A stretch of DNA of 64,000 nt from an uncultured Pelagibacteraceae bacterium (GCA_902589155.1 CACIRV010000003.1:62001-126000), one strand, 5' to 3'. Shown: positions 4,909 to 21,682, counted from the stretch's first letter. Notes: generated by a model not told the origin, from the sequence alone. Program-made: numbers and translations.

Positions 4909-6516
4909 TTACATGTTACCGTATTTAGGTCCGCCACCACCTTCGGGTGCAACCCAAGTGATATTTTGAGAGGGTTCTTTAATATCACAGGTCTTACAGT
5001 GGATACAATTTTGAGAGTTTATAACAAATTTTTCTTTTTGAATTTCATACACACCTACAGGACAGTATCTTTGAGCTGGCTCATCGTACTCTTTTAAAGT
5101 GTAATTAATCGGCAGGTTAGGGTCTTTTAACCTTAAATGGACAGGTTGATTTTCTGTGTGATTAGTTCCTGTTAAATAAACAGAGCTAGTTTTGTCGAAT
5201 GTAAGTTTACCGTCTGGTTTAGGATATTCAATTTTAGGCATCTGACCAGCTGGTTTTAAAGTCTCATGATCTGCATGTTTATGTTTTAATGTAAAAGGTA
5301 GCCTTCCTCTGAACAAAATTTGATCAATACCTGTAAAAATTATTCCTCGTATTAAACCCCAACTAAAACTAGGCTTAACATTTCTTGCTGTATATAACTC
5401 TTTATAAGCCCAGCTTTCCTCAAATTTTTTTTCATAAATGGATAAATCTGTTTTATTTTTTATATTCTCTACGATCGCTTCTGCAGCAACTAATCCACTT
5501 TTCATTGCAGTATGAGAGCCTTTTATTTTTGGCATATTTAAAGTTCCAGCATCACAACCAATTAGCAAAGCTCCCGGCATATACATCTTAGGTAAACTCT
5601 GTATTCCACCCTCGATTAAAGCTCTAGCACCAAAAGCGATACGTTTACCACCCTCTAACATTTTTCTTATAGCCTTATGAGTTTTAAATCTTTGAAATTC
5701 ATCAAAGGGAGATAAGTAAGGATTTTGATAGTCAAGACCAATAACGTACCCAAAATAAATTTGTCTATTTTCTGCATGATAAATAAAGCTTCCACCATAA
5801 GTTTTGTTATCCAAGGGCCATCCTGCAGTATGCATAACCAAACCTTCTTGATGTTGTTCTTCACTTACTTCCCAAATTTCTTTGAAGCCGATACCATATT
5901 GTTGAGGATTTTTTCCTTCATCTAGATTGAATTTTTTAATTAATTGTTTACCTAAATGACCTCTGCATCCTTCAGAAAACACAGTTACCTTTGCATGTAA
6001 CTCCATTCCTTCTTGGTAAGTATCTTTTTTATTTCCTTCTTTATCTAATCCCATGTCTAAAGTAGCTACACCTTTTACTGATCCATCATCATTATAAAGA
6101 ACTTCACTTGCAGGAAACCCTGGGAATATTTCAACTCCTAATTTTTCCGCCTGTTCAGCTAACCAACGACAAAGATTGGCAAGGCTAATGATATAATTCT
6201 TATGGTTTTTTTGCACTGAGGGTAAAAGCCAAGTAGGCCAACTTAAAGAAGAATTTTTTCCTAAAAATAAAAATTTTTCTTTTGAAACTTTTGTTTTTAC
6301 TGGAGCATTTTCATTTTTCCAATTAGGCAATAATTCATCGAGTGCTTTTGTTTCGAACACGTTCCCACTTAAAATGTGAGCTCCAACTTCAGCACCTTTT
6401 TCAAGAATACATACATTTAAATTAGGATCGAGTTGTTTTAGTTTAATCGCAGTAGATAATCCGGCAGGGCCTGCACCAACAATAACTACATCATATTCCA
6501 TTGCTTCTCTAGACAT
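4909..6516 (-). CDS. Electron transfer flavoprotein-ubiquinone oxidoreductase (ETF-QO)
   Basis: FAD motif DVVIVGAGPAGLSTAIKLKQ; C-terminal 4Fe-4S CPVGVYE...CIHCKTCDIKEPSQNITWVAPEGGGGPKYGNM. Confidence 0.95.
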   Translation of the reverse strand: MSREAMEYDVVIVGAGPAGLSTAIKLKQLDPNLNVCILEKGAEVGAHILSGNVFETKALDELLPNWKNENAPVKTKVSKEKFLFLGKNSSLSWPTWLLPSVQKNHKNYIISLANLCRWLAEQAEKLGVEIFPGFPASEVLYNDDGSVKGVATLDMGLDKEGNKKDTYQEGMELHAKVTVFSEGCRGHLGKQLIKKFNLDEGKNPQQYGIGFKEIWEVSEEQHQEGLVMHTAGWPLDNKTYGGSFIYHAENRQIYFGYVIGLDYQNPYLSPFDEFQRFKTHKAIRKMLEGGKRIAFGARALIEGGIQSLPKMYMPGALLIGCDAGTLNMPKIKGSHTAMKSGLVAAEAIVENIKNKTDLSIYEKKFEESWAYKELYTARNVKPSFSWGLIRGIIFTGIDQILFRGRLPFTLKHKHADHETLKPAGQMPKIEYPKPDGKLTFDKTSSVYLTGTNHTENQPVHLRLKDPNLPINYTLKEYDEPAQRYCPVGVYEIQKEKFVINSQNCIHCKTCDIKEPSQNITWVAPEGGGGPKYGNM

Positions 6517-6545
6517 ATCAAAGCTTATATCATAAAATTTTATCT

Positions 6546-6881
6546 ATGAATAAAATTCTGATCTTATTACCAATGCTTTTATTAATGGGATGCGCTGATT
6601 ATCTCGCAGAAAGAGATAGACAAAGATTAGAGCGTGAAAGAATGTCACAAGAGCTTCAAATGAAAAACGATAAAAAAACTTGTGAATATTATGGTTTTAA
6701 AAAAAGTACAGCGCAATTCTCTAATTGTTTAATGCAAATAGATATCGCTAGAAAAGAAAATATAAGAACAAGAAAAATGTTAGAATGTGAAGCGGTTAGA
6801 AGAGATAATACCAATAGTGGTGTAACTGGTTTTTGGGGTGGAGTACTAATGGGAGCTAGAGAAAATCTAGCTTGTGATTAA
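6546..6881 (+). CDS. Small hypothetical lipoprotein
   Basis: Lipobox-like LLLMGC at N-terminus; 111 aa. Confidence 0.6.
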   Translation: MNKILILLPMLLLMGCADYLAERDRQRLERERMSQELQMKNDKKTCEYYGFKKSTAQFSNCLMQIDIARKENIRTRKMLECEAVRRDNTNSGVTGFWGGVLMGARENLACD

Positions 6882-6909
6882 TGACCAAAATATTGTAAGA
6901 TTTTTTAAT

Positions 6910-7479
6910 ATGAAAAAACTTTTAGCGATTATAGTTCTGGGTTTGTTTTTAATAACCCCATCCCAGTCGGATGATATAAGAGACTTTGAAATAGAAGGGA
7001 TTAGTGTTGGGGACAGTTTATTGGATTATTTTAGCAAGAAAGAAATTGATGAATACAAATCAATGCCTTCTTGGCCAAATAAAAAATATACAAGGTTTGT
7101 TTCTTTCGAAAATTTAAATATTTATGATGGTATTTTATTTTATTTTAAAGACGATGGTAATTATTTAGTTTCGTCTATTAGTGCAATTCTAAAATTTCCA
7201 AATAATATTAACAGCTGTTATAAAAAAAAAATGGAAGTAACTAAAGATTTTAAAGATATTTTTACCGACTATAAAACAAATTCATATAAAAGTGATCATC
7301 AACAAGACAAGACTGGTAAAAGCAAAAATGATATAATTGATTTTAATTTTTCAAATGGCGCTTCATCAAGAGTAATTTGTACTGACTGGTCAAAAGAAAA
7401 AGGTATAGATGACGAATTAAGAGTTATACTATCATCAAAAGAGTATACTTATTTTATTACTAATGAAGCCTACAAATAA
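6910..7479 (+). CDS. Secreted paralog family copy 1 (DDIxDFxIEGxSxGDSxLD family)
   Basis: Signal peptide MKKLLAIIVLGLFLITPSQS then DDIRDFEIEGISVGDSLLDYF; ORF track start at 6874, ATG at 6910 preferred. Confidence 0.8.
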   Translation: MKKLLAIIVLGLFLITPSQSDDIRDFEIEGISVGDSLLDYFSKKEIDEYKSMPSWPNKKYTRFVSFENLNIYDGILFYFKDDGNYLVSSISAILKFPNNINSCYKKKMEVTKDFKDIFTDYKTNSYKSDHQQDKTGKSKNDIIDFNFSNGASSRVICTDWSKEKGIDDELRVILSSKEYTYFITNEAYK

Positions 7480-7530
7480 TCACGTACAGGAATCATAAGC
7501 CTGGGTTTGAGGTCTTAAATTAAACCTATG
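7480..7530 (+). repeat. tRNA-Met(CAU)-like remnant plus spacer, module 1/2
   Basis: CACGTACAGGAATCATAAGCCTGGGTTTGAGGTCTTAAATTAAACC; CAU in an anticodon-loop-like context; close match to the 3/4 spacer. Confidence 0.5.
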
Positions 7531-7538
7531 AGAAGATA

Positions 7539-7597
7539 ATTTCAACTATCTCGAAATCTTGACACACATACGACACAGTGAGAAAATGTTTGTTATG
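7539..7597 (+). promoter_or_regulatory. Conserved leader upstream of paralog copy 2
   Basis: TTTCAAC...CTTGACAC-N-CAGTGAGAAAATGTTTGTTATG, conserved without indels at five intergenic sites. Confidence 0.55.
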
Positions 7598-8179
7598 AGG
7601 ATATTTTTAACAGTAATAGTTTTAATCTTTAGTCTTCAATCATTATCCCAAGCGGATGATATTAAAGACTTTCAGATAGAGGGGATTAGCATTGGGGATA
7701 GTTTGTTGGATCATTTTAGCAGAACTGAAATTGATAATAAGAGTAAATCTTTATATCCTAACAAAGAAATGAAACTTAAAACATTTAGATCTGCTAAATT
7801 TAAAATATTTGATAAAATACAATTTCACTGGTTATCTGCAGATAGAAAATATATAATTCAATCAATCTCAGCTGATTTACTTTATAAAAATGATATTAAG
7901 GGTTGTCTTAAGCAACGAAAAATAATTAATAAGGAAATTAAAACTTTGTTTGATAATCCTAAAGAAGAGGATTGGGGTAAAAGAGTTTTGGATAACGTTG
8001 ATCCATCATTACAAACTTTTGCCTATCAAAATATATACCGGTTAGAAGGTGGTAATATAATAATTTCGTGCAGAGATTATGGAAAAATTAAAGAAAAAGA
8101 TCGATTTGTAGATAAACTATCTATTATGATTGACTCAAAAATTTTTGAAGATTGGATTAATAACAAAGCGTGGGATTAG
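7595..8179 (+). CDS. Secreted paralog family copy 2
   Basis: MRIFLTVIVLIFSLQSLSQADDIKDFQIEGISIGDSLLDHF; ORF track start is TTG 7559. Confidence 0.8.
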   Translation: MRIFLTVIVLIFSLQSLSQADDIKDFQIEGISIGDSLLDHFSRTEIDNKSKSLYPNKEMKLKTFRSAKFKIFDKIQFHWLSADRKYIIQSISADLLYKNDIKGCLKQRKIINKEIKTLFDNPKEEDWGKRVLDNVDPSLQTFAYQNIYRLEGGNIIISCRDYGKIKEKDRFVDKLSIMIDSKIFEDWINNKAWD

Positions 8180-8230
8180 AGCGCGGGACTCATAATCTTG
8201 TGCCTAGTGATCTGATTATCTGAGTTACCA
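8176..8230 (+). repeat. tRNA-Met(CAU)-like remnant, module 2/3
   Basis: TTAGAGCGCGGGACTCATAATCTTGTGCC...GAGTTACCA; D-arm end/anticodon-arm-like, ending CCA. Confidence 0.55.
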
Positions 8231-8238
8231 ATATTAAT

Positions 8239-8295
8239 TTCAACTATCACTAATTCTTGACACTCTTAGGTCGCAGTGAGAAAGTGTCAGTTATG
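8239..8295 (+). promoter_or_regulatory. Conserved leader upstream of paralog copy 3
   Basis: TTCAACTATCAC...TTGACACTCTTAGGTCGCAGTGAGAAAGTGTCAGTTATG; GACACT/AGTGTC inverted repeat. Confidence 0.55.
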
Positions 8296-8883
8296 AGGGT
8301 ACTTATAGCAGTTTTAGTTTTAATCTTTAGTCTTCAATCTTGGACCAAAGCAGATGATATCAGCGATTTTGAGATTGAAGGTATAAGTATTGGAGATAGT
8401 TTGTTGGATCATATGTCGTTAAACGAAATAAAAGAAAAAGAAAAAAATCATACAAAAATGGGCAAAAAATTTATTATGATTTTTTACTATCAAGGATCTA
8501 CCTCCAAACTCTATAATGATGTTCAGGTTGTTTATGACCCAAATGATAATAACTATATAATACATCAAGTATCTGGATTCTTAGATTATAAAAATAACAT
8601 TCAAGACTGTTTAAAGAAAAAAAATGAAATTAAAAAAGAAATAAGTGGAGTTTTTAATAATCTAGATACAAAAGATAAGAAAAATCTTTCTCATCCATAT
8701 GATAAATCTGGAGAAACAAAATACTGGTCAACAGATTTTTACTTAGACTCAGGCGCCATGATTAATGTTGGTTGTATGGATTGGAGCAGTAAATTTGAAG
8801 AAGAAAATAATTGGCTAGATAGCTTAGACGTTAATATTAGCTCTTCTGATTATGTAAAATACTTAGGTGTCCTATATAATTAA
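8293..8883 (+). CDS. Secreted paralog family copy 3
   Basis: MRVLIAVLVLIFSLQSWTKADDISDFEIEGISIGDSLLDHM. Confidence 0.8.
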   Translation: MRVLIAVLVLIFSLQSWTKADDISDFEIEGISIGDSLLDHMSLNEIKEKEKNHTKMGKKFIMIFYYQGSTSKLYNDVQVVYDPNDNNYIIHQVSGFLDYKNNIQDCLKKKNEIKKEISGVFNNLDTKDKKNLSHPYDKSGETKYWSTDFYLDSGAMINVGCMDWSSKFEEENNWLDSLDVNISSSDYVKYLGVLYN

Positions 8884-8930
8884 CCACGGCACTCATAAGC
8901 CTGGGTTTGATGTGTTAAATTAAACCTATC
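8884..8930 (+). repeat. tRNA-Met(CAU)-like remnant plus spacer, module 3/4
   Basis: CCACGGCACTCATAAGCCTGGGTTTGATGTGTTAAATTAAACC; near copy of module 1/2. Confidence 0.5.
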
Positions 8931-8940
8931 AGCAAACAAT

Positions 8941-8997
8941 TTCAACCACTCCAAATCATTGACACTTATAGATCACAGTGAGAAAGTGTTTGTTATG
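8941..8997 (+). promoter_or_regulatory. Conserved leader upstream of paralog copy 4
   Basis: TTCAACCACTCCAAATCATTGACACTTATAGATCACAGTGAGAAAGTGTTTGTTATG. Confidence 0.55.
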
Positions 8998-9606
8998 AAG
9001 GTATTTCTAACGGTTCTAGTTTTAATCTTTAGTCTTCAATCCTGGACTAAGGCGGATGACATTAGAGACTTTCAAATTGCAGGATTAAGTGTACAAGATA
9101 GTCTTTTAGACTTTATAAATAAAGAAAAAATTATAGCTAGAAAAAATTCTTACAAAGATAAAGGGTACATGTTTCGTCTTAAAGATTTTTATTCTTTAAC
9201 ATTTTATAACAAAAATACCTTTCCAAAAGTTGAAAAATTTAAACATTTTCCAGGTTTAGAAAATTATGATGATATTCAATTTGTTCTAAAAGATGCTGAC
9301 AATAATTTCAAACTTCATTTAGTCTCAGGAGGTAAATACTTTTATTCCATGGAAAAATGCTTCAAAAAATATGAAGAAATAGAATCTGAATTAAACAGTT
9401 TGTTTAAAAATGTACCACCAAGACGTTCAAATTACAGGCATGCTAGTGGTAAAGCACAGGTTAAATCTACTGAATATATTTTTAAAGATGGCTTTGTAAG
9501 ACTTGCTTGTCAAGATTGGGATGAGAATAGCAATATACAGGATGCATTAATAGTTATGATTCAAACAATGAAACTAAGTCGTTTTTTTGAAAAAAATTAT
9601 AAATAA
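8995..9606 (+). CDS. Secreted paralog family copy 4
   Basis: MKVFLTVLVLIFSLQSWTKADDIRDFQIAGLSVQDSLLDF. Confidence 0.8.
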   Translation: MKVFLTVLVLIFSLQSWTKADDIRDFQIAGLSVQDSLLDFINKEKIIARKNSYKDKGYMFRLKDFYSLTFYNKNTFPKVEKFKHFPGLENYDDIQFVLKDADNNFKLHLVSGGKYFYSMEKCFKKYEEIESELNSLFKNVPPRRSNYRHASGKAQVKSTEYIFKDGFVRLACQDWDENSNIQDALIVMIQTMKLSRFFEKNYK

Positions 9607-9679
9607 AAATATCTCTTATATTTAATTACTTTAATTTATTAATAGATATGCTTAGATATAAAAAATTTGTTAAGATGTT

Positions 9680-10270
9680 ATGATGAAAAAAATTTTAACA
9701 ATTTCTATTTTATACATATCTCTAATAATTTCCTTGCAAGCAGATGATATTAGTGACTTTCAGATCGAAGGAATGAGCATTGGGGATAGTTTGTTAGATT
9801 ATTTTAGTGAAGAAGAAATAAAAAATTTTTATAGAGATGATTTTCCAGGTAGTAAAAAATTCTATCAACTTACTATTCGATCTTCAAAATTAAAGATTTT
9901 TGATGCACTTACTAATGGTTTTAAATCCAGTGATAAAAATTATATAATTTATAGCTTAGGTGGTGCTTTACAATTTCCAAATGATATTGATGGTTGTCTC
10001 AAGAAAAAAGACGAAATATTTTATGAAATAAAAGAATTATTTTCCGAAGTATCAAAAAATAAATCATATACTAGAAAACAAGACGAAGATACAACCGGCG
10101 AATCTAAATTTCATTCCACCGACTTTACTTTTTATTCAGGAGAAAGTGTACGTATCATGTGTATTGATTTTAGTAATAAGTTTGAGCAAGATGGTTATAT
10201 TGATAATTTGAGAGTATTTATAAACTCAACAGAATACAGGAAGTGGATAAATGAAGAAGCCTACAAATAA
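9680..10270 (+). CDS. Secreted paralog family copy 5
   Basis: MKKILTISILYISLIISLQADDISDFQIEGMSIGDSLLDYF; upstream region lacks the leader/tRNA module. Confidence 0.8.
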   Translation: MMKKILTISILYISLIISLQADDISDFQIEGMSIGDSLLDYFSEEEIKNFYRDDFPGSKKFYQLTIRSSKLKIFDALTNGFKSSDKNYIIYSLGGALQFPNDIDGCLKKKDEIFYEIKELFSEVSKNKSYTRKQDEDTTGESKFHSTDFTFYSGESVRIMCIDFSNKFEQDGYIDNLRVFINSTEYRKWINEEAYK

Positions 10271-10275
10271 TAATG

Positions 10276-10316
10276 CATAGGACTCATAAGCCCGCGGTCA
10301 GTGGTCTGACTTCAAA
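10276..10316 (+). repeat. tRNA-Met(CAU)-like remnant, module 5/6
   Basis: CATAGGACTCATAAGCCCGCGGTCAGTGGTCTGACTTCA; anticodon-arm- and T-arm-like parts. Confidence 0.55.
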
Positions 10317-10330
10317 GTATAGTTAACTAA

Positions 10331-10388
10331 TTTTAACTTTCACTAAATCTTGACACACATACGAAGCAGTGAGAAAGTGTTTCTTATG
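10331..10388 (+). promoter_or_regulatory. Conserved leader upstream of paralog copy 6
   Basis: TTTTAACTTTCACTAAATCTTGACACACATACGAAGCAGTGAGAAAGTGTTTCTTATG. Confidence 0.55.
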
Positions 10389-10973
10389 AGGGTTTTTATA
10401 GCAGTTCTAGTTTTAATCTTTAGTCTCCAATCTTTAACTAAGGCTGATGATATCAATGACTTTGAGATAGAAGGTATAAGCCTTGGAGATAGTTTATTGG
10501 ATTATTTCACTGAAAAAGAGATAAAAAATCCTGGAGCTAAAAATATATATTTTTATCCTCAGAGTCGTAAATTTTATGAAATTGTTTTAAATTTAAATAG
10601 TACAATTTATGATGAAATTCAATTTTCACTAAAAGATAAAGATAATTCATATAAAATTTATAACATAAATGGCACAATTTTTTTTAAACAAAACATTAGT
10701 AAATGCCATGATAAAAAAAAAGAGATTGAGTCAGATTTATCCAAAATATTTAATATGAACGAAGTAAATGTATATCCTGAAACAGGCAAGCATACTGTCG
10801 ATAAAACAGGAAGAAGCACCTATGAAGCTGTATGGTATGTTTTTAAATCTGGAGATCATGTGGGAGTTATTTGTACTGACTATCATATAGATATGAATAA
10901 TCAGGACAGTTTAAAATTATTAATATCTTCGAAGGAATATAACAATTTTTTAAGGACAAAAGCCTACGAATAA
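10386..10973 (+). CDS. Secreted paralog family copy 6
   Basis: MRVFIAVLVLIFSLQSLTKADDINDFEIEGISLGDSLLDYF. Confidence 0.8.
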   Translation: MRVFIAVLVLIFSLQSLTKADDINDFEIEGISLGDSLLDYFTEKEIKNPGAKNIYFYPQSRKFYEIVLNLNSTIYDEIQFSLKDKDNSYKIYNINGTIFFKQNISKCHDKKKEIESDLSKIFNMNEVNVYPETGKHTVDKTGRSTYEAVWYVFKSGDHVGVICTDYHIDMNNQDSLKLLISSKEYNNFLRTKAYE

Positions 10974-10992
10974 ACCCATGAAACTATCTTTA

Positions 10993-11030
10993 ACCACGCA
11001 CGACCCCTCATAATCCCGCGGTCGTAATCT
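10993..11030 (+). repeat. tRNA-Met(CAU)-like remnant, module 6/7
   Basis: CCACGCACGACCCCTCATAATCCCGCGGTCGTAATC; contains CTCATAATCCCGCGGTCG. Confidence 0.55.
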
Positions 11031-11059
11031 ATTAACTGTTTTTCACTTACCTTATTACA

Positions 11060-11112
11060 ACTTAATAGAAATCTTGACACAAATAAATCATAGTGAAAAA
11101 ATGTTTAGTATG
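11060..11112 (+). promoter_or_regulatory. Conserved leader upstream of paralog copy 7
   Basis: CTTAATAGAAATCTTGACACAAATAAATCATAGTGAAAAAATGTTTAGTATG; same spacing as other leaders. Confidence 0.5.
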
Positions 11113-11697
11113 AAGAGATTATTATTAATTCTTATCTTGACGTTTAACTTTCAGTCGCTCACTAAGGCTGATGATATTGAAGACTTTCAGATCGAAGGGA
11201 TGAGTATTGGGGATAGTGTACTAGATTATTTTACTATTACTGAGTTAAACAATTCACTGGATATATATGATTATTTAGACAAATATAGATATTATTTTTT
11301 TCCTTATTCTAAAGCTAAAGAATATGAATATCTTCAGATAACTGTAAAACAAAAAGATAAGAAATATATAATTTATGATCTTCAGGGACATATTTTCTAT
11401 TCAAATAATATCAAGAAATGTAATAAAAAAATAAATGAAATAAAAAAAGATATAGACGAAATTTTAAATACGGAAGGAAAAGAATATTCAGGAGCTCATT
11501 GGATAGATAAAACTGGTGAAAGCAAATATAAGAGAATTAACTATATCCTTCAAGGTGGGATAGTAGATTTAGTTTGTTTTGATATGAGTAAAAAATTGGA
11601 AGACAAAGGCAAAGAAGATAGGCTAACAGTAACTTTTACAAGCAAGGAATTTGCTGAATGGCTTGATAAAAATTATTCGAAAATAAAAATGAATTAA
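11110..11697 (+). CDS. Secreted paralog family copy 7
   Basis: MKRLLLILILTFNFQSLTKADDIEDFQIEGMSIGDSVLDYF. Confidence 0.8.
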   Translation: MKRLLLILILTFNFQSLTKADDIEDFQIEGMSIGDSVLDYFTITELNNSLDIYDYLDKYRYYFFPYSKAKEYEYLQITVKQKDKKYIIYDLQGHIFYSNNIKKCNKKINEIKKDIDEILNTEGKEYSGAHWIDKTGESKYKRINYILQGGIVDLVCFDMSKKLEDKGKEDRLTVTFTSKEFAEWLDKNYSKIKMN

Positions 11698-11715
11698 AAT
11701 TAAATAATTATTTAT

Positions 11716-13185
11716 TTAGAAACTAAATATTTGAATTGTAAATAACAAGTAAATAACTCCAAGCCACGTTCTTAATTTTTTATTTATTATAAAAACTTTT
11801 CTTTGATTCTTGACTATAAATTTACTAACTCCAATACTCATAAATGTTGGAATGCAGCACCAAATATAGGATAATAAAATATATTTATCTAAAGCTGTAA
11901 GATAATTTAATTTTGGTATGTCATCTAAAAAAACAAAATTATAAGCTATTAAAGCCAACAGAGCTACAATAGAGGTGTTTAACCTTGCGTCAAGTTTTTC
12001 TATGGGAATCCATAATACATACCAAGCTATACTTAGAATTAAAAAAATAGGTATTATAATTTTATAAATATAATGAGCTGAATTTCTTTCAATGTTTAAT
12101 ATTAAGTCGATTGAATTTTCATTATAAGAATGAGTTTTATCTAAATATTTGTTATAAAAATTTTCAACTATAATTTCATCACTTTCTATGTTTATGTTTT
12201 TTACTGTCCATTCTTTTAAATAATTCTCTGATATATTAATTAAATAATTTTCTAATCCTAAAAAAGCTCCTTCAGCTGGTGTTATGAAATGAACGGCTGC
12301 TTTTCCAGTTTTTGGCCAGGCTTCATTAATATTTGCAGTACTTCTAGCTCCAGAGGCAATTTTAATTTTTAGTATTTGTTTATCAAAAGGAAAATTTTTA
12401 AAGTCGAATGTTTGTCTGAACTGACCTATTCCAGACTCCTGACGCACAGTTCTTACTTCTCCTTTATCGTAAGTAAAATCAATTTGAGACCTATTAGCGA
12501 CATCTGGAGTATTAACGCCTTTTCTAATGTCAACATCATATTTATATTCTTTTATTTCAACTGTTTGAATAGGATAAGGTGCATTCTCATTCATAGCTTG
12601 GTAAAAATCATCTTTAAGTAGACCTTTAGCAAATTTATTTAATTCTGGTCTTTTATTTGTAAAATCAGCACGAAATGAAATTTCAAGCAAACCTCTATTA
12701 GTGTCTATGTTATTTATGTAATCTAAATTAAAACTAGAAAGCTTTATATCATTGTAATCATAGATGTAAGGTTTAAGATTAATTACTTTATTATTATTTA
12801 AAGTAATTTTAGCTTTCTCATTTTTTTTATTTAATTCTTTAATTATTTTATCAGAAACCTTAGATAAATCTAAATCATTATATTTCTGCACTGAAATACC
12901 TTGAGGAAAATTTTTCTTATCGAACAAAGAAAACCTTATCACCGGATAGTTATTTTTATCTCTTTTGATAATTATTTGTTTTTTATTCTTATCCCAAGAA
13001 AAATCATAGAACAAACCTATATCTTTCCTCGTTTCTTGAAATGGGTAGGAGTTAATTACATTACTTTGTAAGACTCGATTATTGAACGCTAACTCCACAT
13101 TTGCCTCTGCTTCAAGAATACCTAATAAAACAGTGCTTAAAAAAAGAAAAATAGTAAATTTATATTTAGTTAAATTCATAAACAA
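11716..13185 (-). CDS. Pentameric ligand-gated ion channel (Cys-loop receptor-like) homolog
   Basis: FPFDKQILKI signature in the ECD; pre-M1/M1 ERNSAHYIYKIIIPIFLILSIAWYVLWI; M2-M3 ARLNTSIVALLALIAYNFVFLDDIPKLNYLTALDKYI. Confidence 0.8.
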   Translation of the reverse strand: MFMNLTKYKFTIFLFLSTVLLGILEAEANVELAFNNRVLQSNVINSYPFQETRKDIGLFYDFSWDKNKKQIIIKRDKNNYPVIRFSLFDKKNFPQGISVQKYNDLDLSKVSDKIIKELNKKNEKAKITLNNNKVINLKPYIYDYNDIKLSSFNLDYINNIDTNRGLLEISFRADFTNKRPELNKFAKGLLKDDFYQAMNENAPYPIQTVEIKEYKYDVDIRKGVNTPDVANRSQIDFTYDKGEVRTVRQESGIGQFRQTFDFKNFPFDKQILKIKIASGARSTANINEAWPKTGKAAVHFITPAEGAFLGLENYLINISENYLKEWTVKNINIESDEIIVENFYNKYLDKTHSYNENSIDLILNIERNSAHYIYKIIIPIFLILSIAWYVLWIPIEKLDARLNTSIVALLALIAYNFVFLDDIPKLNYLTALDKYILLSYIWCCIPTFMSIGVSKFIVKNQRKVFIINKKLRTWLGVIYLLFTIQIFSF

Positions 13186-13223
13186 TAAGTTGAGTTTAAT
13201 TTATTATAATCATAATATTTGAA

Positions 13224-13694
13224 ATGGCAAAAATAAGAAAAAGTGCCTCTATAGAAAGCGGTTTAATGGAGGTTTTGAAAATTTTATCTGATGAAGAAAT
13301 CAACAAAGCAATCGGCAAAACTTCATCATATTTGAGAAAATGTAGTAACCCTGATTTAGCTCAACAAATTGATCACAACGACTCATTTAAACTTGATCAA
13401 GCCTGTATTCAAAAAGGCAAAGCTCCACCTTTACTTACTGCTTACGACTATATGATTGCACATTTGTTAGAGAAAGCTGATAATTTTGAAAAAAAGGATA
13501 TTAATGAAATGTTAGTTAAATCTACGATATTGCATGGAAAACTTACGGAACTAGTTAAAGAGGCCAAGGACCCTAAAGGTGAGAAGGGTGAAGAGATATC
13601 AGCTTTAGAAAAAAAAGATATATTTGAAGCTATTACAGATTTAGAAAACAAAATTCTTAAAATTAAGCTTACTATAGATAGTAAAAATAAGTAG
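13224..13694 (+). CDS. Hypothetical protein
   Basis: 156 aa ORF, charged, possible HTH-like N-terminus. Confidence 0.6.
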   Translation: MAKIRKSASIESGLMEVLKILSDEEINKAIGKTSSYLRKCSNPDLAQQIDHNDSFKLDQACIQKGKAPPLLTAYDYMIAHLLEKADNFEKKDINEMLVKSTILHGKLTELVKEAKDPKGEKGEEISALEKKDIFEAITDLENKILKIKLTIDSKNK

Positions 13695-13723
13695 CAGTAA
13701 TAATTTAAATTAATAAAAGATAT

Positions 13724-15004
13724 TTAAGATATTTTTTCATATTTATCCCATTTACCGTCTTGATCGTTATCATAAGCCATAATATCTGAGGTACCATTAT
13801 CATCTTCATCTATTTCTGCTCTATCAGCATTACCATCTAGGTCATCATCAAATAAAAAGATTTCAAAGTTTTTATTTTCATTTTCATCAAATGCTACTGC
13901 TTCAACTATACCATCCTCGTTTTGATCAATAATTGCGGCATCTATCTTTCCATTTTTGTTTTCATCTATAAACCAAACATCTGTAATACCATTTTTGTTC
14001 ATATCTCTTTTTTCGGCATCAGGGTATTTTTTATCTATGCTATTTTTTTTGGCTTTTTTATTTTTTTTGGTGATCCAAGTAGGTTCTTTTTTTTTCTTTT
14101 GAATATAGTTATTTTTTTTTATTTTTTTTTCCGGTTTTTTTAGAAACTCAACCATATCGTTCACTGATATAGCAAAATTTAAATTTTCACCTTCTTTAGT
14201 AAATGTATTTACTCCAACTAATTTTTTATTTTTATTGAATAAAGGCCCACCAGAGTTACCTGGATTTATAGGGGTTTGTGTTTGTATTACATCAGCAAAA
14301 TGATTGGAATTTTTATATCTCCATTTATAATTCGGCCTCAACTGACTTACCATGCCGCTGCTAAAGCTCCAAATTAAATCATCAGGATGCCCAATAGCAA
14401 AAACTGTTTCGCCAATACTGACATCGTTAAAATTTCCTAATGAAACTGGCTTAACGTCATTTGGCAACCCTACAACCTCCAATAAAGCTAAATCTTTTTC
14501 TCTATCTATTTTAACAATTCTTGCTTTGTAGGAGTCTAAATTATCTAACATGTATTGTTCACCGACTAAATCTTCAGGTTTAAGCCATACCCTTACATTT
14601 TTAGAGCCTTCAACAACGTGCCAATTAGTTATTATTTTTTTTCCTTTATGATTTATTACAAAACCTGAACCGGAAGTATTTTTTTTTGTGTTTCCTATGA
14701 AAACAACACTTTTAGCATAATCTTTATAAATATCTTCTGATGTTCCTTTAAATTTAGTTCGAGGAGGTCTGTTTTTATTTTTACTAATTAATTTTGGACT
14801 AATAATTTCTAAGTATTTTTTATTAACCTCTATATTAGTTTTTACTTCTTTAATTTGTTTTTTGTTAGTTAATGGTGTTTGGTATATAGCCAAATCCTCT
14901 TTTCCAACCATCTTAGAGCTTAAGAGAAGACTATTAAAATTTTCTGAATAAGCCGTAGTAACGTAAGAAATTGTAATAAATAAAATTAAAAATCTTTTAA
15001 TCAT
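13724..15004 (-). CDS. Secreted trypsin-like (S1/HtrA-type) serine protease with C-terminal Ca-binding-like repeats
   Basis: Triad context TNWHVVEG, DLALLEV, INPGNSGGPLF; signal peptide; seven 13-residue D-rich repeats. Confidence 0.85.
   Translation of the reverse strand: MIKRFLILFITISYVTTAYSENFNSLLLSSKMVGKEDLAIYQTPLTNKKQIKEVKTNIEVNKKYLEIISPKLISKNKNRPPRTKFKGTSEDIYKDYAKSVVFIGNTKKNTSGSGFVINHKGKKIITNWHVVEGSKNVRVWLKPEDLVGEQYMLDNLDSYKARIVKIDREKDLALLEVVGLPNDVKPVSLGNFNDVSIGETVFAIGHPDDLIWSFSSGMVSQLRPNYKWRYKNSNHFADVIQTQTPINPGNSGGPLFNKNKKLVGVNTFTKEGENLNFAISVNDMVEFLKKPEKKIKKNNYIQKKKKEPTWITKKNKKAKKNSIDKKYPDAEKRDMNKNGITDVWFIDENKNGKIDAAIIDQNEDGIVEAVAFDENENKNFEIFLFDDDLDGNADRAEIDEDDNGTSDIMAYDNDQDGKWDKYEKIS
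13733..14005 (-). repeat. Seven tandem 13-codon Ca-binding-like repeats in the protease C-terminus
   Basis: DMNKNGITDVWFI/DENKNGKIDAAII/DQNEDGIVEAVAF/DENENKNFEIFLF/DDDLDGNADRAEI/DEDDNGTSDIMAY/DNDQDGKWDKYEK. Confidence 0.85.
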
Positions 15005-16476
15005 TCAAGATTTTTTTTAGGGATGAATATAAAATCACCTCCAAGATGCTTCCAGGCATCGGGATGGTAGTAATAAGGTTTTTGATTATAATTTCCAGCA
15101 AATGCATTTTCTAAATTAAATGCTATTGTTCTCATATTTAAAGGATTGGCCTCTCTTTCATAAATATTTAGCATATTTAAAAATGATAGAGCAAATATTG
15201 AATTATTTGAGTTTGGAGCAGTATCACTTACTTGACCTAGACTTCCAGAAGACAAAACACTTCTTGATCGCAAGTCTAAATAATCTTTAAATTTTTTATT
15301 TACAATGCTACGATCTTTATTATTTTTCAAATCAAGTATATTAACCCCTTTAAATTTTCCACCTACATAACATGAGTCAACCATCAGCGCTAAATGATGG
15401 GCCTTAATCTCAGTAAGAAATATATTTAACTCATTTATATTAATCCAGTCACCATTACCCCACTCTAAACTACCATCTTTTGGTATCCAATAAGCTTGTT
15501 TTGCTTTAACCATTCCGTGACCAGAGTAATAAATTAAAACAAAATCATTAGTTGTTGTAAGTTTTGATAGGTCTTGGAAAGCTTGAAAGATTTCTTTTTT
15601 TGTTCCATCCTTGACCATTATAATTTTTTCAAATTTATAACTTTTATCTAAAACTGATTTAATAGCAGTTATATCGTTAACTGGAGAAACAAGATCATCC
15701 CAGCCATTGTCATTATAATTTGAATTTCCTATTAGTAATGCATAATATTTACCTTTTGGATTTAAAGTAATTTTTTTCTTAGATACAGATGGTAAACTTC
15801 TAACAAATGATTGTGATACTTCTTTATCTTTTTTATTAAGTTTAGCTAATTGAGTCTTTGATATTTTTAAATTTTCGGCAAAATTAAAGTTAATTTTTAT
15901 TTTTTGCTCAGTTTCCGCACTTCCACTCCCACTTTTTTGGCTATACTGACCTGTAAACTTTGTTTTATCGCTACATTCTCCAGAGACAAACCCAATTATA
16001 TTATTTGCAATTATTCCTCTTTCTGTCGCAATATTACAAATTGCTTTGTTATGTTGAATGTAACCTTTACCTTTACTTATTTTATATATTGAACCACCTT
16101 GAAAATTAATTTTTTCAGATTCTTTATCATCATTAATATAACCATAAAAGATTCTTCCGTCACCAGCATAAGCCGTGAAATAAATCTGAGACTTTGGAAG
16201 AGAAGTGATTTCTAAAAATTTATCTTTTTTTGTTTTTTTAGTTATATAAGATTTAACTGCTTTAGATATATTTTTTTCTTTTTTTTTATAATCTTCTTTA
16301 TTTTTTTTAATTTGTTTTTTTTTAAGTTTAATCCATTCAGATTTTTCTTTTTTTTCTTTTTTTATTGTTTCTTTAGATTTATCACTTTTTTTAGTAATCC
16401 AATTAGCTTCTGCAGATGAAATTAGAAAAATACCTGCAAAAAATAGTATGCTAATTTTTTTAGCTATTTTAAACAT
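15001..16476 (-). CDS. Secreted caspase-like peptidase (C14/metacaspase-type)
   Basis: KYYALLIGNSNYNDNGWDDLVSPVNDITAIKSVL; catalytic His YYSGHG; catalytic Cys ALMVDSCYVGG; Lys-rich N-terminal linker. Confidence 0.85.
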   Translation of the reverse strand: MFKIAKKISILFFAGIFLISSAEANWITKKSDKSKETIKKEKKEKSEWIKLKKKQIKKNKEDYKKKEKNISKAVKSYITKKTKKDKFLEITSLPKSQIYFTAYAGDGRIFYGYINDDKESEKINFQGGSIYKISKGKGYIQHNKAICNIATERGIIANNIIGFVSGECSDKTKFTGQYSQKSGSGSAETEQKIKINFNFAENLKISKTQLAKLNKKDKEVSQSFVRSLPSVSKKKITLNPKGKYYALLIGNSNYNDNGWDDLVSPVNDITAIKSVLDKSYKFEKIIMVKDGTKKEIFQAFQDLSKLTTTNDFVLIYYSGHGMVKAKQAYWIPKDGSLEWGNGDWININELNIFLTEIKAHHLALMVDSCYVGGKFKGVNILDLKNNKDRSIVNKKFKDYLDLRSRSVLSSGSLGQVSDTAPNSNNSIFALSFLNMLNIYEREANPLNMRTIAFNLENAFAGNYNQKPYYYHPDAWKHLGGDFIFIPKKNLE

Positions 16477-16518
16477 TCTAATATTTTAAATAATATTAAT
16501 TAAATTTCTATTCTTTTT

Positions 16519-16719
16519 TTACCTTCTTTTTGGCAATCTACCTCCACTTTTAATACAATCTTTGATTGTTGTGAACTTTTTGAAATATTTTGTTTGATCA
16601 TAATATTGTGAACCAGCTTTGTGACAAATACCTGTTTTTGACTTTTTTACAGGAGGGTCGAGTTGATCACATGAAATAATAAAGATTATTGATAAAAAAA
16701 ATATAACTAGCTTTTTCAT
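16519..16719 (-). CDS. Small lipoprotein with ICHKAGSQYY...TKYFKKF...GGRLPK motif
   Basis: Lipobox-like FIISC; 66 aa. Confidence 0.5.
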   Translation of the reverse strand: MKKLVIFFLSIIFIISCDQLDPPVKKSKTGICHKAGSQYYDQTKYFKKFTTIKDCIKSGGRLPKRR

Positions 16720-16725
16720 CTTAAA

Positions 16726-16959
16726 TTAAGGTTTATTACAGCTTGAATCTCGCAAACCATAGGTAGCGATCTCTTGAGAGCAAATATAAATAGTTTTATA
16801 CTTTTTGAGAGTGAAAATTTTTACTGCAACTCTTTCAAATTTAACAATCTCAGTTTTAACAATTTTAAAATTTTGCTTTAATAAATCATTCATTTCTGAA
16901 GCATATAATGGAGTAGACCACACGCTAAAAGTTAATAATAAAACAAATATTTTTTTCAT
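16726..16959 (-). CDS. Small secreted hypothetical protein
   Basis: Signal peptide MKKIFVLLLTFSVWSTPLYA; 77 aa. Confidence 0.5.
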   Translation of the reverse strand: MKKIFVLLLTFSVWSTPLYASEMNDLLKQNFKIVKTEIVKFERVAVKIFTLKKYKTIYICSQEIATYGLRDSSCNKP

Positions 16960-16988
16960 AACTTAAATATAGAGAATTTTAAAAAAAT

Positions 16989-17062
16989 TTCTTGTCCAAA
17001 TAACTTCTGCATTTTGGACTAAAAAATTTTTGTCCAATTTTTAATCTAAACCTGGACAAGAA
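16989..17062. promoter_or_regulatory. Nested inverted repeats in a divergent promoter region (candidate operator)
   Basis: Outer TTCTTGTCCA (16989) / TGGACAAGAA (17053), inner TTGGAC (17014) / GTCCAA (17032). Confidence 0.7.
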
Positions 17063-17091
17063 TTTTTTTAAATAACAACTATATCTAAATC

Positions 17092-17331
17092 ATGAAAACA
17101 AAAACAAAGGAGACAAAAATGAGAAAAGTAAAAGTACAAGAAGATACAAATAGTACTTCAGTATTGCAAATACTAGGGTTTTTATTAGTTGCTTTTGCAA
17201 TTGCAGATTTTGCACTGTCATGGGCTGGAGTAAATCTAACAAGCTTTATGGGCGCAGCATCAAGATTTTCCCCAATGATCTTTGGATTTCTTGGCGCAAC
17301 ATTAATGAGTGTTGGAAAGGATGGTGACTAA
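17092..17331 (+). CDS. Small membrane protein (first gene of unknown operon)
   Basis: 79 aa with two likely TM segments; follows the nested IR region. Confidence 0.6.
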   Translation: MKTKTKETKMRKVKVQEDTNSTSVLQILGFLLVAFAIADFALSWAGVNLTSFMGAASRFSPMIFGFLGATLMSVGKDGD

Positions 17332-17341
17332 ATATTTTATT

Positions 17342-17366
17342 CTCCCCTTTGAAATAAAAAGGGGAG
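17342..17366 (+). other. Intergenic stem-loop CTCCCCTTT-GAAATAA-AAAGGGGAG
   Basis: Perfect 9-bp stem, no downstream T-tract. Confidence 0.6.
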
Positions 17367-17377
17367 ATAAATTGAAA

Positions 17378-17602
17378 ATGAAATCATTTATACACTCAAC
17401 TATTAGACTTGTAATTTCTTTAGGTAAATTTGGAATCTTGTTTTATACAATTTCTTCAGCAAGTATTGCATTAAATTCATCAGATAATTTCAGATATCTT
17501 AAAAACGGCTCACCAATATTAAAATTAAGTGGTATTTATATCCAAGGTGAAATTAACTCTAATATTAAAAGAAAACAGAGGCAAGTTTTACTTGAAGTAT
17601 AG
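17378..17602 (+). CDS. Small hypothetical protein with N-terminal TM segment
   Basis: MKSFIHSTIRLVISLGKFGILFYTISSASIALNSS; ATG after the hairpin preferred over the 17309 start. Confidence 0.5.
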   Translation: MKSFIHSTIRLVISLGKFGILFYTISSASIALNSSDNFRYLKNGSPILKLSGIYIQGEINSNIKRKQRQVLLEV

Positions 17603-17610
17603 GAAGCAAT

Positions 17611-19122
17611 ATGAAAGAATTTTTCAAAAAAATTTTAAAATCTATAAAGTTATTTTTTAAAGGAAATAATATGAGCTATGATTTTACAAACGTTAAAGTT
17701 AAACAATTAGAAGAAAAAATTAATCTTAAAGAAACTGCAATTAATGATGGGAAAAATAATTTACCAAGATCCTCATCTGAAACTTTTTCAAATTGTGAAA
17801 ATGAAGCGATAGTTTCCGCAGATGAGTTCAGAAACAGTCAAATTTCAAAAGCTGTAGAGTATTTAAATTCTATCAAAGGCAAGATTATTGATAGTACTGC
17901 AAAATTAGGACAAAAACATTTCTATATTGATGAGTTTAAAAATAGAATCGAACAAACATTAACAGCTGCTGAGAGCAAATTATCAAATTTAAAGAGCGCT
18001 TATACCACACAAAACAATGAAGTTCGTAATTTTAAATTGGAAAATAAATTAAATAGAGAGCCTAAATCACCATCTACGTTTAATATAATAATAGCTATGT
18101 CTATAATTGCTATATTATTTTACATAGAACTTAAAGTGAATGGAAATTTACTTGCACCAGCTATGGCTAGTGGCCAAAAAGAAGGAATGGCTATAGCAGC
18201 TGCAGTAGCAGGATTAAATGTATTTGTTTCGTTCGCCGTAGGCTTTTATGCGCTAAAAAACTTTCATCATGTTCAATCAATTAGAAAAAATATTTCTAAA
18301 TTTGGTTTAAGTATTTATTTATTATTTATCTTTTATTTAAATTGGTCTTTAGGAGCTTATAGAGCAATACACGAAACAACTGGTGAAAATCTTATTGATG
18401 CCATTATGGGAAATAGTAACTCCCCAAGCGAAGCAATTGTTGGAAGTCCAGCATTGCCCTGGACTGTTGACTTAACATTTACTTCTTTAATACTAGTTTT
18501 TGTTGGAATTGGATTTGCTCTTGCATCCCTTATTGATGGTTATCTTTTTAACGATCCTTATCCTGGATATGGATCTGTTGGTAAAGATAGAAATGATAAT
18601 CAAAAAGAAATTAATAGAATGAGAGAACATTTATCTTCTGAAGTTACTACTTTATTTAAAAATGAAATTCGAAAAACTGGAGAAAATAGAGATGCTATAA
18701 TTAATAATACTTTAAGAAAAAATTGGGTTTCAAGCATAACATCTTTAGAAAATACTTTTGAGGGTTACAGAAGATTTTCAGAACAATTAAGTTTTGCCTT
18801 AGATCATACAATAGGTGAGTATAGAACGATCAATAGTATGTATAGAACAGAATCAGAACCTAAATACTGGAAAGATGAAAACGGAAAAGTTAAAACAAAA
18901 TACTATGAATTAAGAGAAGAAAAAAGAGATCCTAACGCAGTATTTAAAGATTTTGCAGTTCTCTATCTTAATAAAGATCAAATAGAGAAAAATATCGAAC
19001 ACTATCAAAACACAATTCAAAATGAATCAAATGATTTCATTAATAAACTCAATTTATATAACGATGAAATTAATAAAAGAATTGAAGCTATACGGACTAA
19101 ATATGATATTTCGACAATTTAA
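17611..19122 (+). CDS. Unknown membrane protein with cytosolic coiled-coil-like regions flanking several TM segments
   Basis: 503 aa; central hydrophobic block TFNIIIAMSIIAILFYIE...FGLSIYLLFIFYLNWSLGAY; charged flanks. Confidence 0.7.
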   Translation: MKEFFKKILKSIKLFFKGNNMSYDFTNVKVKQLEEKINLKETAINDGKNNLPRSSSETFSNCENEAIVSADEFRNSQISKAVEYLNSIKGKIIDSTAKLGQKHFYIDEFKNRIEQTLTAAESKLSNLKSAYTTQNNEVRNFKLENKLNREPKSPSTFNIIIAMSIIAILFYIELKVNGNLLAPAMASGQKEGMAIAAAVAGLNVFVSFAVGFYALKNFHHVQSIRKNISKFGLSIYLLFIFYLNWSLGAYRAIHETTGENLIDAIMGNSNSPSEAIVGSPALPWTVDLTFTSLILVFVGIGFALASLIDGYLFNDPYPGYGSVGKDRNDNQKEINRMREHLSSEVTTLFKNEIRKTGENRDAIINNTLRKNWVSSITSLENTFEGYRRFSEQLSFALDHTIGEYRTINSMYRTESEPKYWKDENGKVKTKYYELREEKRDPNAVFKDFAVLYLNKDQIEKNIEHYQNTIQNESNDFINKLNLYNDEINKRIEAIRTKYDISTI

Positions 19123-20023
19123 TTTATTAATAGCTTTTTTAGTATCATTTTTTTTAGTCTCAAATTTAGCTTACGCTAAAAAGTTTCCAGCAGGATACCC
19201 TGAATGTTGGCAAGACACTAAAAATCCAATTATATTAGATCCTAAAAATTCAAATCAATTTTGCCCTTTAAATTCTAAAGTAGGCCATAAGTTTTTTTTA
19301 GTAGATTTTACGTCTCCTTTACAACAGCCTCAAATTGACTGGATAGCAGGTAGAATATTTGGAAATGCTTTAACTAAAGAAACGCCTCCTTATTACAAGA
19401 TTTCTTATATGAAAATTGATAATACGGCTCCACAATCACAAGTAATTAGTTATTCTAAATGCAGGTTTAAAACAGGGAATAAATCTAAATTTAAAGGTGA
19501 AAAAACTAATACTGGTTGTGAAGGAGAAAAACAAATAGCAAAAGTTTATAAAGCTTGGTCAGAATTAACTTCTAAGTTTGAAGGAGAGTTTTTACATCTT
19601 AATCACAAAGAAGGTAAAAGAAGTTTAATATTTGAATATTTGTTTCATGTTTTAAGAGAAGCAAAAACTGATTTTACTTCTGAATATCCTGAAAGAGAAC
19701 TAGTGATTGTTTCTGATTTAATGCAACATTCTAAGAGATTCTCGTTTTATAATCATTGTAAAACTAATCTACAAATTATTAAACCTAATAAGTGTAAATC
19801 TTTTGCAAGTCTGATTAAAAATAAGAAAATTAAAAATTATATAGATGATAGAAAACCAAAAAGAGAAACACTTAGCAACCTCAAAGTAACAATTTTATAT
19901 ATAAATCATGATTATGAAACTAGAGATGGTTTATCTAGTTCTCTCGTTACGTTGTGGGAAGATTTATTTAAATATATTGGTATTAAAAACTACGAAATTG
20001 TTAAACAACTTGATATACAATAA
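19103..20023 (+). CDS. Secreted protein of unknown family, possibly VWA-like topology
   Basis: Signal peptide MIFRQFNLLIAFLVSFFLVSNLAYA; segments FFLVDFTSPL and RELVIVSDLMQHS; overlaps upstream gene. Confidence 0.6.
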   Translation: MIFRQFNLLIAFLVSFFLVSNLAYAKKFPAGYPECWQDTKNPIILDPKNSNQFCPLNSKVGHKFFLVDFTSPLQQPQIDWIAGRIFGNALTKETPPYYKISYMKIDNTAPQSQVISYSKCRFKTGNKSKFKGEKTNTGCEGEKQIAKVYKAWSELTSKFEGEFLHLNHKEGKRSLIFEYLFHVLREAKTDFTSEYPERELVIVSDLMQHSKRFSFYNHCKTNLQIIKPNKCKSFASLIKNKKIKNYIDDRKPKRETLSNLKVTILYINHDYETRDGLSSSLVTLWEDLFKYIGIKNYEIVKQLDIQ

Positions 20024-20868
20024 TGTTTACAGATCCTTCATTAATTTATCTATCAACTATCATTCCTCCAATTTTATTAGGTCTTGCAATATGGAAGTCA
20101 GATAAGTTTCCTGAACCAGGAAAGTTTCTTGTAGCATCTTTTTTGTTGGGTGTTTCTATTAGTTTTCCTTTGCATTTATTCATTATGATAGCAGAAGATC
20201 ATATTGCTCCTTTATTAGGACTTGATCTTAATGCAATAACTGCTTGGAACGAAGGTGCTTGGAAAGATGATAATGCAGTTTATCCAGTAGCTGAAAGAAC
20301 TTTTATGAGTTTTTTTAGAGCAGCATTTTTAGAAGAGGGAATAAAATTCGCTATACTTTTATTTTTCTGTGTAAGATTATCCGCTTTGAACGAACCAATG
20401 GATGCGATAGTTTATGGTGCAGCTATTGGACTAGGTTATGCTGCTATGGAAAATCTTGGATATTTAAATTCTGGTGATTTAGAAACTGCATGGACATTTT
20501 CTATTGTTAAAGTTAGATATTTACCTTTAGTTATGCATCTGGGTTTTGGTGTATTAATGGGATGGTTGCTAAGCTTAAATCTTTTTGAGGAAAGAAGTCA
20601 ATTTAAAAGAAGAATAATGCTTATATTGGCTTTAGCAGTGCCTGTAACCCTGCACGGCTCATATAATTATTTACGTGCATATGAAGTATTTCCTATTTTA
20701 ACTTTAATTTTAACTATAGGAATAATTTATTTTTACAGAAGAGAACAATTGAGGAAAATTACTGAGGACATAGATAAGGCAAAAATTGCAAACTTAGATG
20801 TTTTTTATTCTTATTTAGTTTCAGTTATATTAGTTGCGTTAGTAATTTTGTCAGCAATAGTTACTTAA
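20023..20868 (+). CDS. PrsW-family intramembrane protease
   Basis: FFRAAFLEEGIKFAILLFF, MDAIVYGAAIGLGYAAMENLGY and VMHLGFGVLMG motifs. Confidence 0.85.
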   Translation: MFTDPSLIYLSTIIPPILLGLAIWKSDKFPEPGKFLVASFLLGVSISFPLHLFIMIAEDHIAPLLGLDLNAITAWNEGAWKDDNAVYPVAERTFMSFFRAAFLEEGIKFAILLFFCVRLSALNEPMDAIVYGAAIGLGYAAMENLGYLNSGDLETAWTFSIVKVRYLPLVMHLGFGVLMGWLLSLNLFEERSQFKRRIMLILALAVPVTLHGSYNYLRAYEVFPILTLILTIGIIYFYRREQLRKITEDIDKAKIANLDVFYSYLVSVILVALVILSAIVT

Positions 20869-20883
20869 AAGAAAGGAGAAAAT

Positions 20884-21093
20884 ATGGAATGGATAATTAT
20901 AATCATAGTAGCAGGAGCTTTTTACTATGGGATTTATAGATTAGCTTTATCAAAAAATAGAAATCCATGGAATTGGATTTTACCTGCTCTTTTGATCTCA
21001 CCGCTAATTATAATTATTATATTAGCTTTATGTAGTTCTTTGCCTAAAAAAAAATCAACTACAAAAAGAAAAAAAAATAAAAGCAGAAGGTAA
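20884..21093 (+). CDS. Small membrane protein with basic C-terminus
   Basis: 69 aa; two TM segments then KKKSTTKRKKNKSRR. Confidence 0.55.
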   Translation: MEWIIIIIVAGAFYYGIYRLALSKNRNPWNWILPALLISPLIIIIILALCSSLPKKKSTTKRKKNKSRR

Positions 21094-21094
21094 A

Positions 21095-21682
21095 TTGAAT
21101 AAAATTTTTATAATCATAATTTTTTTTAGCTTATGCTTCATAAGCCCATCCCAAGCGGATGATATTAGAGATTTCCAAATAGAGGGGATTAGCATAGGGG
21201 ATAGCGCATTAGATTACATCGATAAGGATAAATTAATATCAAAAAAAAAAGATTGGTTTAAAAGTAATAAATATTCAATATCAGCGGATTTTGAGGATTT
21301 TGAATTAGATTTTCTAAAAACTTACGATGGTTTACAATTTGTTTATTTAACAAATGATAATGAATTTAAACTTCATGGCATTGAGGCATTAAAGTTTTTT
21401 AAAGATAATGTAAAAGAATGTTATTCGGAACTTGATAGTATAGCTTTTGAAATTAGCAAATTATTTGAAACTGCAAAACTTTCAAAAAGCAATTCTTATA
21501 GACACACAGGTGATAAATTAGGAAAAACTATGATCATGACACGATCATTACAAATGTTAAACGGAGACAAAATTGCAATTAGTTGTTATGATTGGTCAAA
21601 AGAGATTGGATATTGGGATCAACTAAGAATATCATTAAGAAAAATTGAATACATTAATTTTTTAATTAATGATGCTTACTAA
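21095..21682 (+). CDS. Secreted paralog family copy 8 (distal)
   Basis: MNKIFIIIIFFSLCFISPSQADDIRDFQIEGISIGDSALDY; TTG start. Confidence 0.8.
   Translation: MNKIFIIIIFFSLCFISPSQADDIRDFQIEGISIGDSALDYIDKDKLISKKKDWFKSNKYSISADFEDFELDFLKTYDGLQFVYLTNDNEFKLHGIEALKFFKDNVKECYSELDSIAFEISKLFETAKLSKSNSYRHTGDKLGKTMIMTRSLQMLNGDKIAISCYDWSKEIGYWDQLRISLRKIEYINFLINDAY

Follow-up and report, generated by a model that had tools for sequence, protein, structure and literature searches.

In Streptococcus, the TipC proteins carry a signal sequence, are encoded by as many as 15 tandem copies that recombine through 5' and 3' homology blocks, and bind the TelC toxin through a concave face of seven strands, which differs from paralog to paralog, as far as the available accounts describe them (PMC9484751, PMC6193138). 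The EsaG and Lpl proteins of Staphylococcus are also encoded by tandem paralogs that recombine through conserved blocks; the intergenic regions of the esaG genes resemble one another in length and sequence, and in the case of lpl the recombination spans the conserved block of one gene to that of the next, according to the part of the report devoted to them (PMC9484751). Here we describe a SAR11 gene family with a comparable genetic behavior, present in a 64,000-nucleotide (nt) stretch of DNA (the window) from an uncultured Pelagibacteraceae bacterium (GCA_902589155.1 CACIRV010000003.1:62001-126000), whose partial genome comprises 778 kb and is 70% complete. Seven consecutive open reading frames (ORFs) at positions 6910-11697 of the plus strand encode exported proteins, and each gene can be described as a constant head joined to a variable body. 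The bodies are exchanged between arrays by recombination, and this mosaic recombination itself we consider very likely.

TipC is the closest described system in behavior. The proteins of both systems are exported, ~200 amino acids (aa) long and encoded in tandem copies with recombining conserved gene ends and a variable middle (PMC6193138, PMC9484751), and the SAR11 models share with TipC the number of strands (seven) and of helices (three) and a sheet whose surface varies. TipC is, in these accounts, membrane-anchored and its gene adjoins the telC toxin gene, whereas the SAR11 arrays show neither an anchor nor a recognized toxin. No sequence match to TipC was found in the Protein Data Bank (PDB), its structure 6DHX is missing from the top-50 Foldseek lists of both models, and the adjacent cognate toxin gene that would be expected for immunity proteins of the type VII secretion system was not recognized in the clusters of ORFs near family copies. 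Because no homology was detected, no toxin is recognized nearby and no anchor is visible, the SAR11 family resembles TipC in genetics and surface pattern but is not a member. EsaG differs in counteracting a nuclease toxin and is not presented as exported in the relevant part of the report, the Lpl proteins are lipoproteins, and a leaderless promoter/signal-peptide head is described there for neither (PMC9484751).

An initial reading made from the window alone (the sequence-only reading) had proposed seven tandem same-strand paralogs with a nearly invariant mature N-terminus, a divergent core and two cysteines in comparable positions. The ORFs are open and align over their full length, with 31-44% identity to gene 1, and chance similarity can be excluded since a search of the genome with a profile built from the seven copies gives 12 matching copies (E between 1e-38 and 1e-80). 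The copy number of eight given in that reading is correct for the window, where the eighth gene stands alone, and too low for the genome. The seven-copy alignment contains 21 invariant columns, including D21, D22, I23, D25, F26, I28, G30, S32, D35, S36, L38, D39 and both cysteines (C103 and C157). The mature start of the array proteins is near-constant (DDIxDFxIEGxSxGDSLLD) and conserved in general, but less strictly than had been stated, as gene 4 has DDIRDFQIAGLSVQDSLLD and several positions vary across 140 copies.

Genes with nearly identical bodies have different heads. Thirty pairs with bodies at least 80% identical show a synonymous divergence (dS) of mostly 0.02-0.5 in the body, while in the signal peptide it is often ~1 or higher (0.02 vs 1.28 for L071/L104, 0.10 vs 1.29 for L142/L098, and 0.17 vs 2.7 for window gene 5 and L048:3480, where a 93% identical body lies behind a different head). 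The ratio of synonymous differences per site (pS) in the head, taken as the first 20 codons, to those in the body is 3.58 for the family (23 pairs). For control pairs of non-family genes from these loci, with a body pS <0.25, it is 0.87 (p=1.3e-9; 51 control pairs, a small and partly non-independent set). In 24 of the 30 pairs the shared segment has its left edge between the ATG and the mature start. The right edges coincide with the stop codon or lie close to it; in several cases where another family gene follows, they lie in its head or first ~65 mature nt, and a few extend further. Both neighbors differ in 33 of 39 close pairs, 16 of these 33 having no flanking cluster in common, and near-identical bodies occur behind different heads, in other arrays and at other chromosomal sites. 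Head similarity is higher within loci than between them, to a degree reached in none of 300 permutations, whereas body identity is 27.1% within an array and 27.3% between loci. The tandem duplication of the sequence-only reading is not supported as stated: recent local duplication was not seen as the main source of the arrays, since the bodies are no closer within a locus than elsewhere. Because it is the heads, not the bodies, that are closer within a locus, the arrays owe their assembly and reshuffling to recombination through the heads.

The AlphaFold2 model of the gene 5 product, calculated with 140 aligned sequences, is a single confident domain (mean predicted local distance difference test score, pLDDT, 96.7), and the model of the divergent gene 4, calculated with 60 sequences, has a pLDDT of 91.7. 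Seven main strands and three main helices follow one another in identical order in both. In the alignment of 140 sequences residues 1-19 have the lowest entropy (0.78 bits), and the values are higher elsewhere, in agreement with the divergent core of the sequence-only reading. The strands reach the highest value on their polar face (3.32, vs 2.36 for loops, p=4e-7, and 2.41 for helices). This face is presumably solvent-exposed, judging from hydropathy and not from coordinates, and it is the likely binding surface.

The sequence-only reading had proposed a diversifying family, which is not supported as stated. In close pairs the pooled ratio of nonsynonymous to synonymous differences (pN/pS) is 0.32 for the bodies, and for the polar face it is 0.27 in recent pairs, as in the loops; ongoing diversifying selection on the sheet face was thus not seen. 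All the copies in the window are open, and the copies behave as functional genes and not as pseudogenes. Because recent selection is purifying everywhere, the diversity looks old and maintained rather than generated by a current arms race at the amino acid level.

In the Foldseek search with the gene 5 model, CyanoP/PsbP-like proteins rank first (E 4e-3, template modeling score, TM, 0.38), and the top matches of the gene 4 model include PsbP, DcrB, Mog1 and SciW/EagT6, all of which we take to form one fold group. This Mog1/PsbP-like group comes first in both searches, weakly (E 4e-3 and 1.6e-2, TM 0.32-0.38). Its members are likewise small alpha/beta domains, several of them periplasmic or lumenal. 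No sequence similarity to the group is detectable, TM-scores are ~0.2-0.4, and we know of no hypervariable arrays within it; the Foldseek scores seem too low to assign the family to this group. The proteins could nevertheless be structural or scavenging envelope proteins, similar to the Mog1/PsbP/DcrB-like periplasmic factors, that bind varied small ligands or membrane components, in which case the variable face would set ligand specificity and shuffling would fit the set to nutrients. The presence of PsbP, CyanoP, DcrB, Mog1 and SciW/EagT6 among the top matches of the two models is consistent with this, and purifying selection and old maintained lineages suit fixed specificities, but with such TM-scores, and with no transporter recurring as adjacent partner among the clusters examined, we regard this explanation as unlikely.

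The intergenic promoter-like element and the mosaic structure are features beyond the sequence-only reading. The element is part of a repeated head module (Table 1) and precedes five of the seven array genes (TTGACA, exactly 17 nt, GAAA(G/A)T). With 0-1 mismatch allowed, its matches in the whole genome are exactly these five sites. It is recognizable in 73 of the 305 unique family members, with the ATG exactly 7 nt past the -10 hexamer in 61 of the 73. When the fetched loci were searched with a profile of the intergenic part, 92 matches were obtained, not all independent since some loci cover the same contig, and the best-scoring ones end just before family ATGs in many genomes. Because of the 7-nt spacing, the transcript would start at or next to the ATG, resulting in a leaderless mRNA. 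The MTHIRHSEKVFVM stretch is this promoter-like element and its spacing to the ATG shifts by 1-2 nt in some copies; therefore, the proteins start at the ATG, and a coding N-terminal extension initiated at TTG was ruled out. Several mechanically assigned TTG/GTG starts are too early, so that the size of ~190-215 aa reported before becomes 189-203 aa when the array precursors are counted from the ATG. A chimeric head is observed at L069:685-804, where the promoter and MRIF of one head type are joined to MKKLLGIM of the other. The array is preceded by a small lipoprotein-like gene (6510-6881, plus strand) with TAGACA-N17-TAAAAT and 7 nt to the ATG, as if it were leaderless too.

Variable genes spaced by repeated intergenic DNA are also typical of integron cassette arrays. 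In the SAR11 arrays the repeat is promoter-like, no integrase or other recombinase was recognized among the recurring array neighbors, and the 42 aligned intergenic elements show no conserved RNA fold of the attC kind (mean z -0.4). The CTCATAA segment after the stop codon was considered as a hairpin, tRNA-like, attC-like or terminator element and rejected, with no tRNA, Rfam match or conserved fold and with weak z-scores.

Table 1. Positions of the family genes, head modules, promoter-like elements and neighboring features in the window.
Feature	Position	Strand	Remarks
Family gene 1	6910..7479	+	189 aa; MKK-type head; without own promoter element
Family gene 2	7595..8179	+	194 aa; MR-type head
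Family gene 3	8293..8883	+	196 aa
Family gene 4	8995..9606	+	203 aa; source of second AlphaFold2 model (pLDDT 91.7)
Family gene 5	9683..10270	+	195 aa; source of first AlphaFold2 model (pLDDT 96.7)
Family gene 6	10386..10973	+	195 aa
Family gene 7	11110..11697	+	195 aa
Family gene 8	21095..21682	+	Solitary, at opposite island edge; TTG start; adjoins ETF-alpha
Head module, 235 nt	7476..7710	+	Intergenic region, promoter-like element, signal peptide, conserved mature N-terminus
Further head-module copies	Starts 8174, 8876, 10267, 10991	+	Five copies in all
Promoter-like element, gene 2	7559..7597	+	TTGACA-N17-GAAAAT, 7 nt, ATG
Promoter-like element, gene 3	8257..8295	+	TTGACA-N17-GAAAGT, 7 nt, ATG
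Promoter-like element, gene 4	8959..8997	+	
Promoter-like element, gene 6	10350..10388	+	
Promoter-like element, gene 7	11074..11112	+	One mismatch
Island	6546..21682		15 kb, between ETF-QO gene and ETF alpha/beta genes; family genes near both edges
Pentameric ligand-gated-channel-like protein	11716-13185	-	Weak PF02932 match (22.9 bits); 18 nt from array
Trypsin-like protease with C-terminal DxDxNG-type repeats, overlapping caspase-like peptidase gene (PF00656)	13724-16476	-	
Two proteins without Pfam match, then PrsW-like protease	17611-20868	+	503 and 333 aa (first two)

The export of the proteins, proposed before, is supported by a Sec-type signal peptide with an AxA↓DD-like cleavage site in 260 of the 305 unique members. 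After residue 22 exactly two cysteines are present in 299/305, and the pair, invariant in the array as had been noted, is probably disulfide-bonded. The earlier suggestion of a surface or periplasmic location can be narrowed: since a lipobox-like motif occurs in only 2/305 members, contrary to the lipobox cysteine of the Lpl type, and no outer-membrane anchor is seen, the proteins are more likely periplasmic than surface-anchored, judging from their sequences. No characterized family could be named previously, and none emerged here. The Pfam, NCBIfam, PHROGs and PADLOC searches gave no consistent match, merely scattered weak ones (in the case of the PADLOC anti-phage defense profiles, four families, each weakly matched by a single member), no match to the DcrB Pfam family is present in the tabulated results, and the PDB sequence search found no solved structure that matched consistently.

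In profile searches, 16 of the 169 genomes searched in the genus and 30 of the 397 searched in the order had the family, while in a class-level sample of 289 genomes the sole positive was the window's own genome. Among the genomes searched it is found only in Pelagibacterales, and it is patchy there. All 72 loci fetched from public genomes belong to uncultured single cells or metagenome-assembled genomes of Pelagibacteraceae, Pelagibacterales or uncultured alphaproteobacteria, which may explain why the family has no name; the richest locus has 13 family hits. Two divergent copies (L076 and L077) are present in G110, from another family of the order, and one of the precursors has a lipobox-like cysteine, so a membrane-anchored ancestor is possible. 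In G012, a degenerate remnant of one copy (L078:9684-9896) is observed, and no intact copy was found in that genome.

A phage or viral origin was rejected, as no relatives of the family were found in the viral contigs and phage records searched. The same searches bear on the idea that the proteins serve escape, as decoys that alter or cover what phages or grazers recognize on the cell. The patchy presence, the shuffling between strains and the hypervariable face would be expected of such proteins, and a phage lipoprotein is among the best matches in a structure search of a viral library, a similarity of fold only. The lack of relatives in viral contigs and phage records, together with the 303 of 305 members without a lipobox-like motif and the missing outer-membrane anchor, makes this role rather improbable.

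The array lies within an island, between a gene of the electron transfer flavoprotein (ETF)-ubiquinone oxidoreductase (ETF-QO) on one side and a channel-like gene on the other. In two family-negative relatives (G078 and G183) ETF-QO and ETF-alpha are 21 nt apart, and 8 of 10 family-negative relatives have no ETF-QO hit at all. Strong orthologs of the channel-like protein occur in 10/16 family-positive and 0/153 family-negative genomes of the genus (Fisher p=2e-12, kinship ignored), an association which would fit family proteins acting as partners of the channel, e.g. modulators of its periplasmic domain. The channel cluster lies near family copies in 18 loci, but many other arrays have no channel nearby, and shared ancestry with physical linkage could account for the association; we give this partnership very little credence.

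The island also encodes trypsin-like, caspase-like and PrsW-like proteases. The overlapping trypsin-like and caspase-like genes could be a regulated-protease or defense pair, and the trio of the 503-aa, 333-aa and PrsW-like proteins recurs adjoining family copies in other genomes. Small disulfide-bonded periplasmic domains are often inhibitors, and with these proteases close by, the family proteins might inhibit hydrolases of the envelope or of foreign origin, e.g. lysozymes or proteases, or be their substrates. However, proteases adjoin only part of the arrays and known inhibitors gave no sequence or strong fold match, and such a role is, in our estimate, improbable.

We tentatively favor, with less than even confidence, the view that the array is a shuffled set of binding proteins of the periplasm, whose most likely role is to neutralize variable incoming proteins. 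The constant head would comprise, in most copies here, a leaderless-mRNA promoter, the signal peptide and ~20 conserved mature residues, and the products would be exported, soluble, single-domain binders of the SAR11 periplasm, probably with a disulfide bond. Homologous recombination between heads of different genes or cells would exchange the bodies, either alone or along with the DNA that extends to the next head, and a swapped body would then be expressed and exported from another array. With a common seven-stranded, three-helix fold and the polar sheet face as the likely binding surface, the most likely job, by analogy with TipC and EsaG, would be to bind and neutralize variable outside proteins that reach the periplasm (toxins, or phage entry and lysis proteins), with one body per target type.

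Several points weigh against this interpretation. No gene recognizable as encoding a toxin or a secretion component recurs next to the arrays (clusters of 638 nearby ORFs, of which only some were scanned with Pfam), and TipC is absent from the Foldseek top lists. Site-wise diversifying selection is not seen in recent pairs, unlike in a fast arms race, the exposure of the polar face is deduced from hydropathy rather than coordinates, and the control pairs are limited as described above. To our knowledge, free-living, dispersed SAR11 cells are also unlikely targets of contact-dependent toxins. The more specific proposal, that SAR11 has a poly-immunity or anti-phage system of its own whose specificity bodies are traded by the strains among constant, leaderless export heads, is possible, if doubtful.

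As a natural example, the head/body mosaic shows modular recombination cleanly in the small genomes of free-living cells. Although the genomes of SAR11 are streamlined and have hardly any DNA to spare, about a dozen copies of these genes are retained by some lineages, which trade the variable parts. This indicates strong selection, specific to the strain, at the cell envelope, the site of action of phages and competitors. Should the bodies be specificity elements, one could read from an array what its SAR11 strain has faced, and if the poly-immunity or anti-phage proposal is true, the most abundant bacteria of the ocean would own a swappable periplasmic recognition set.

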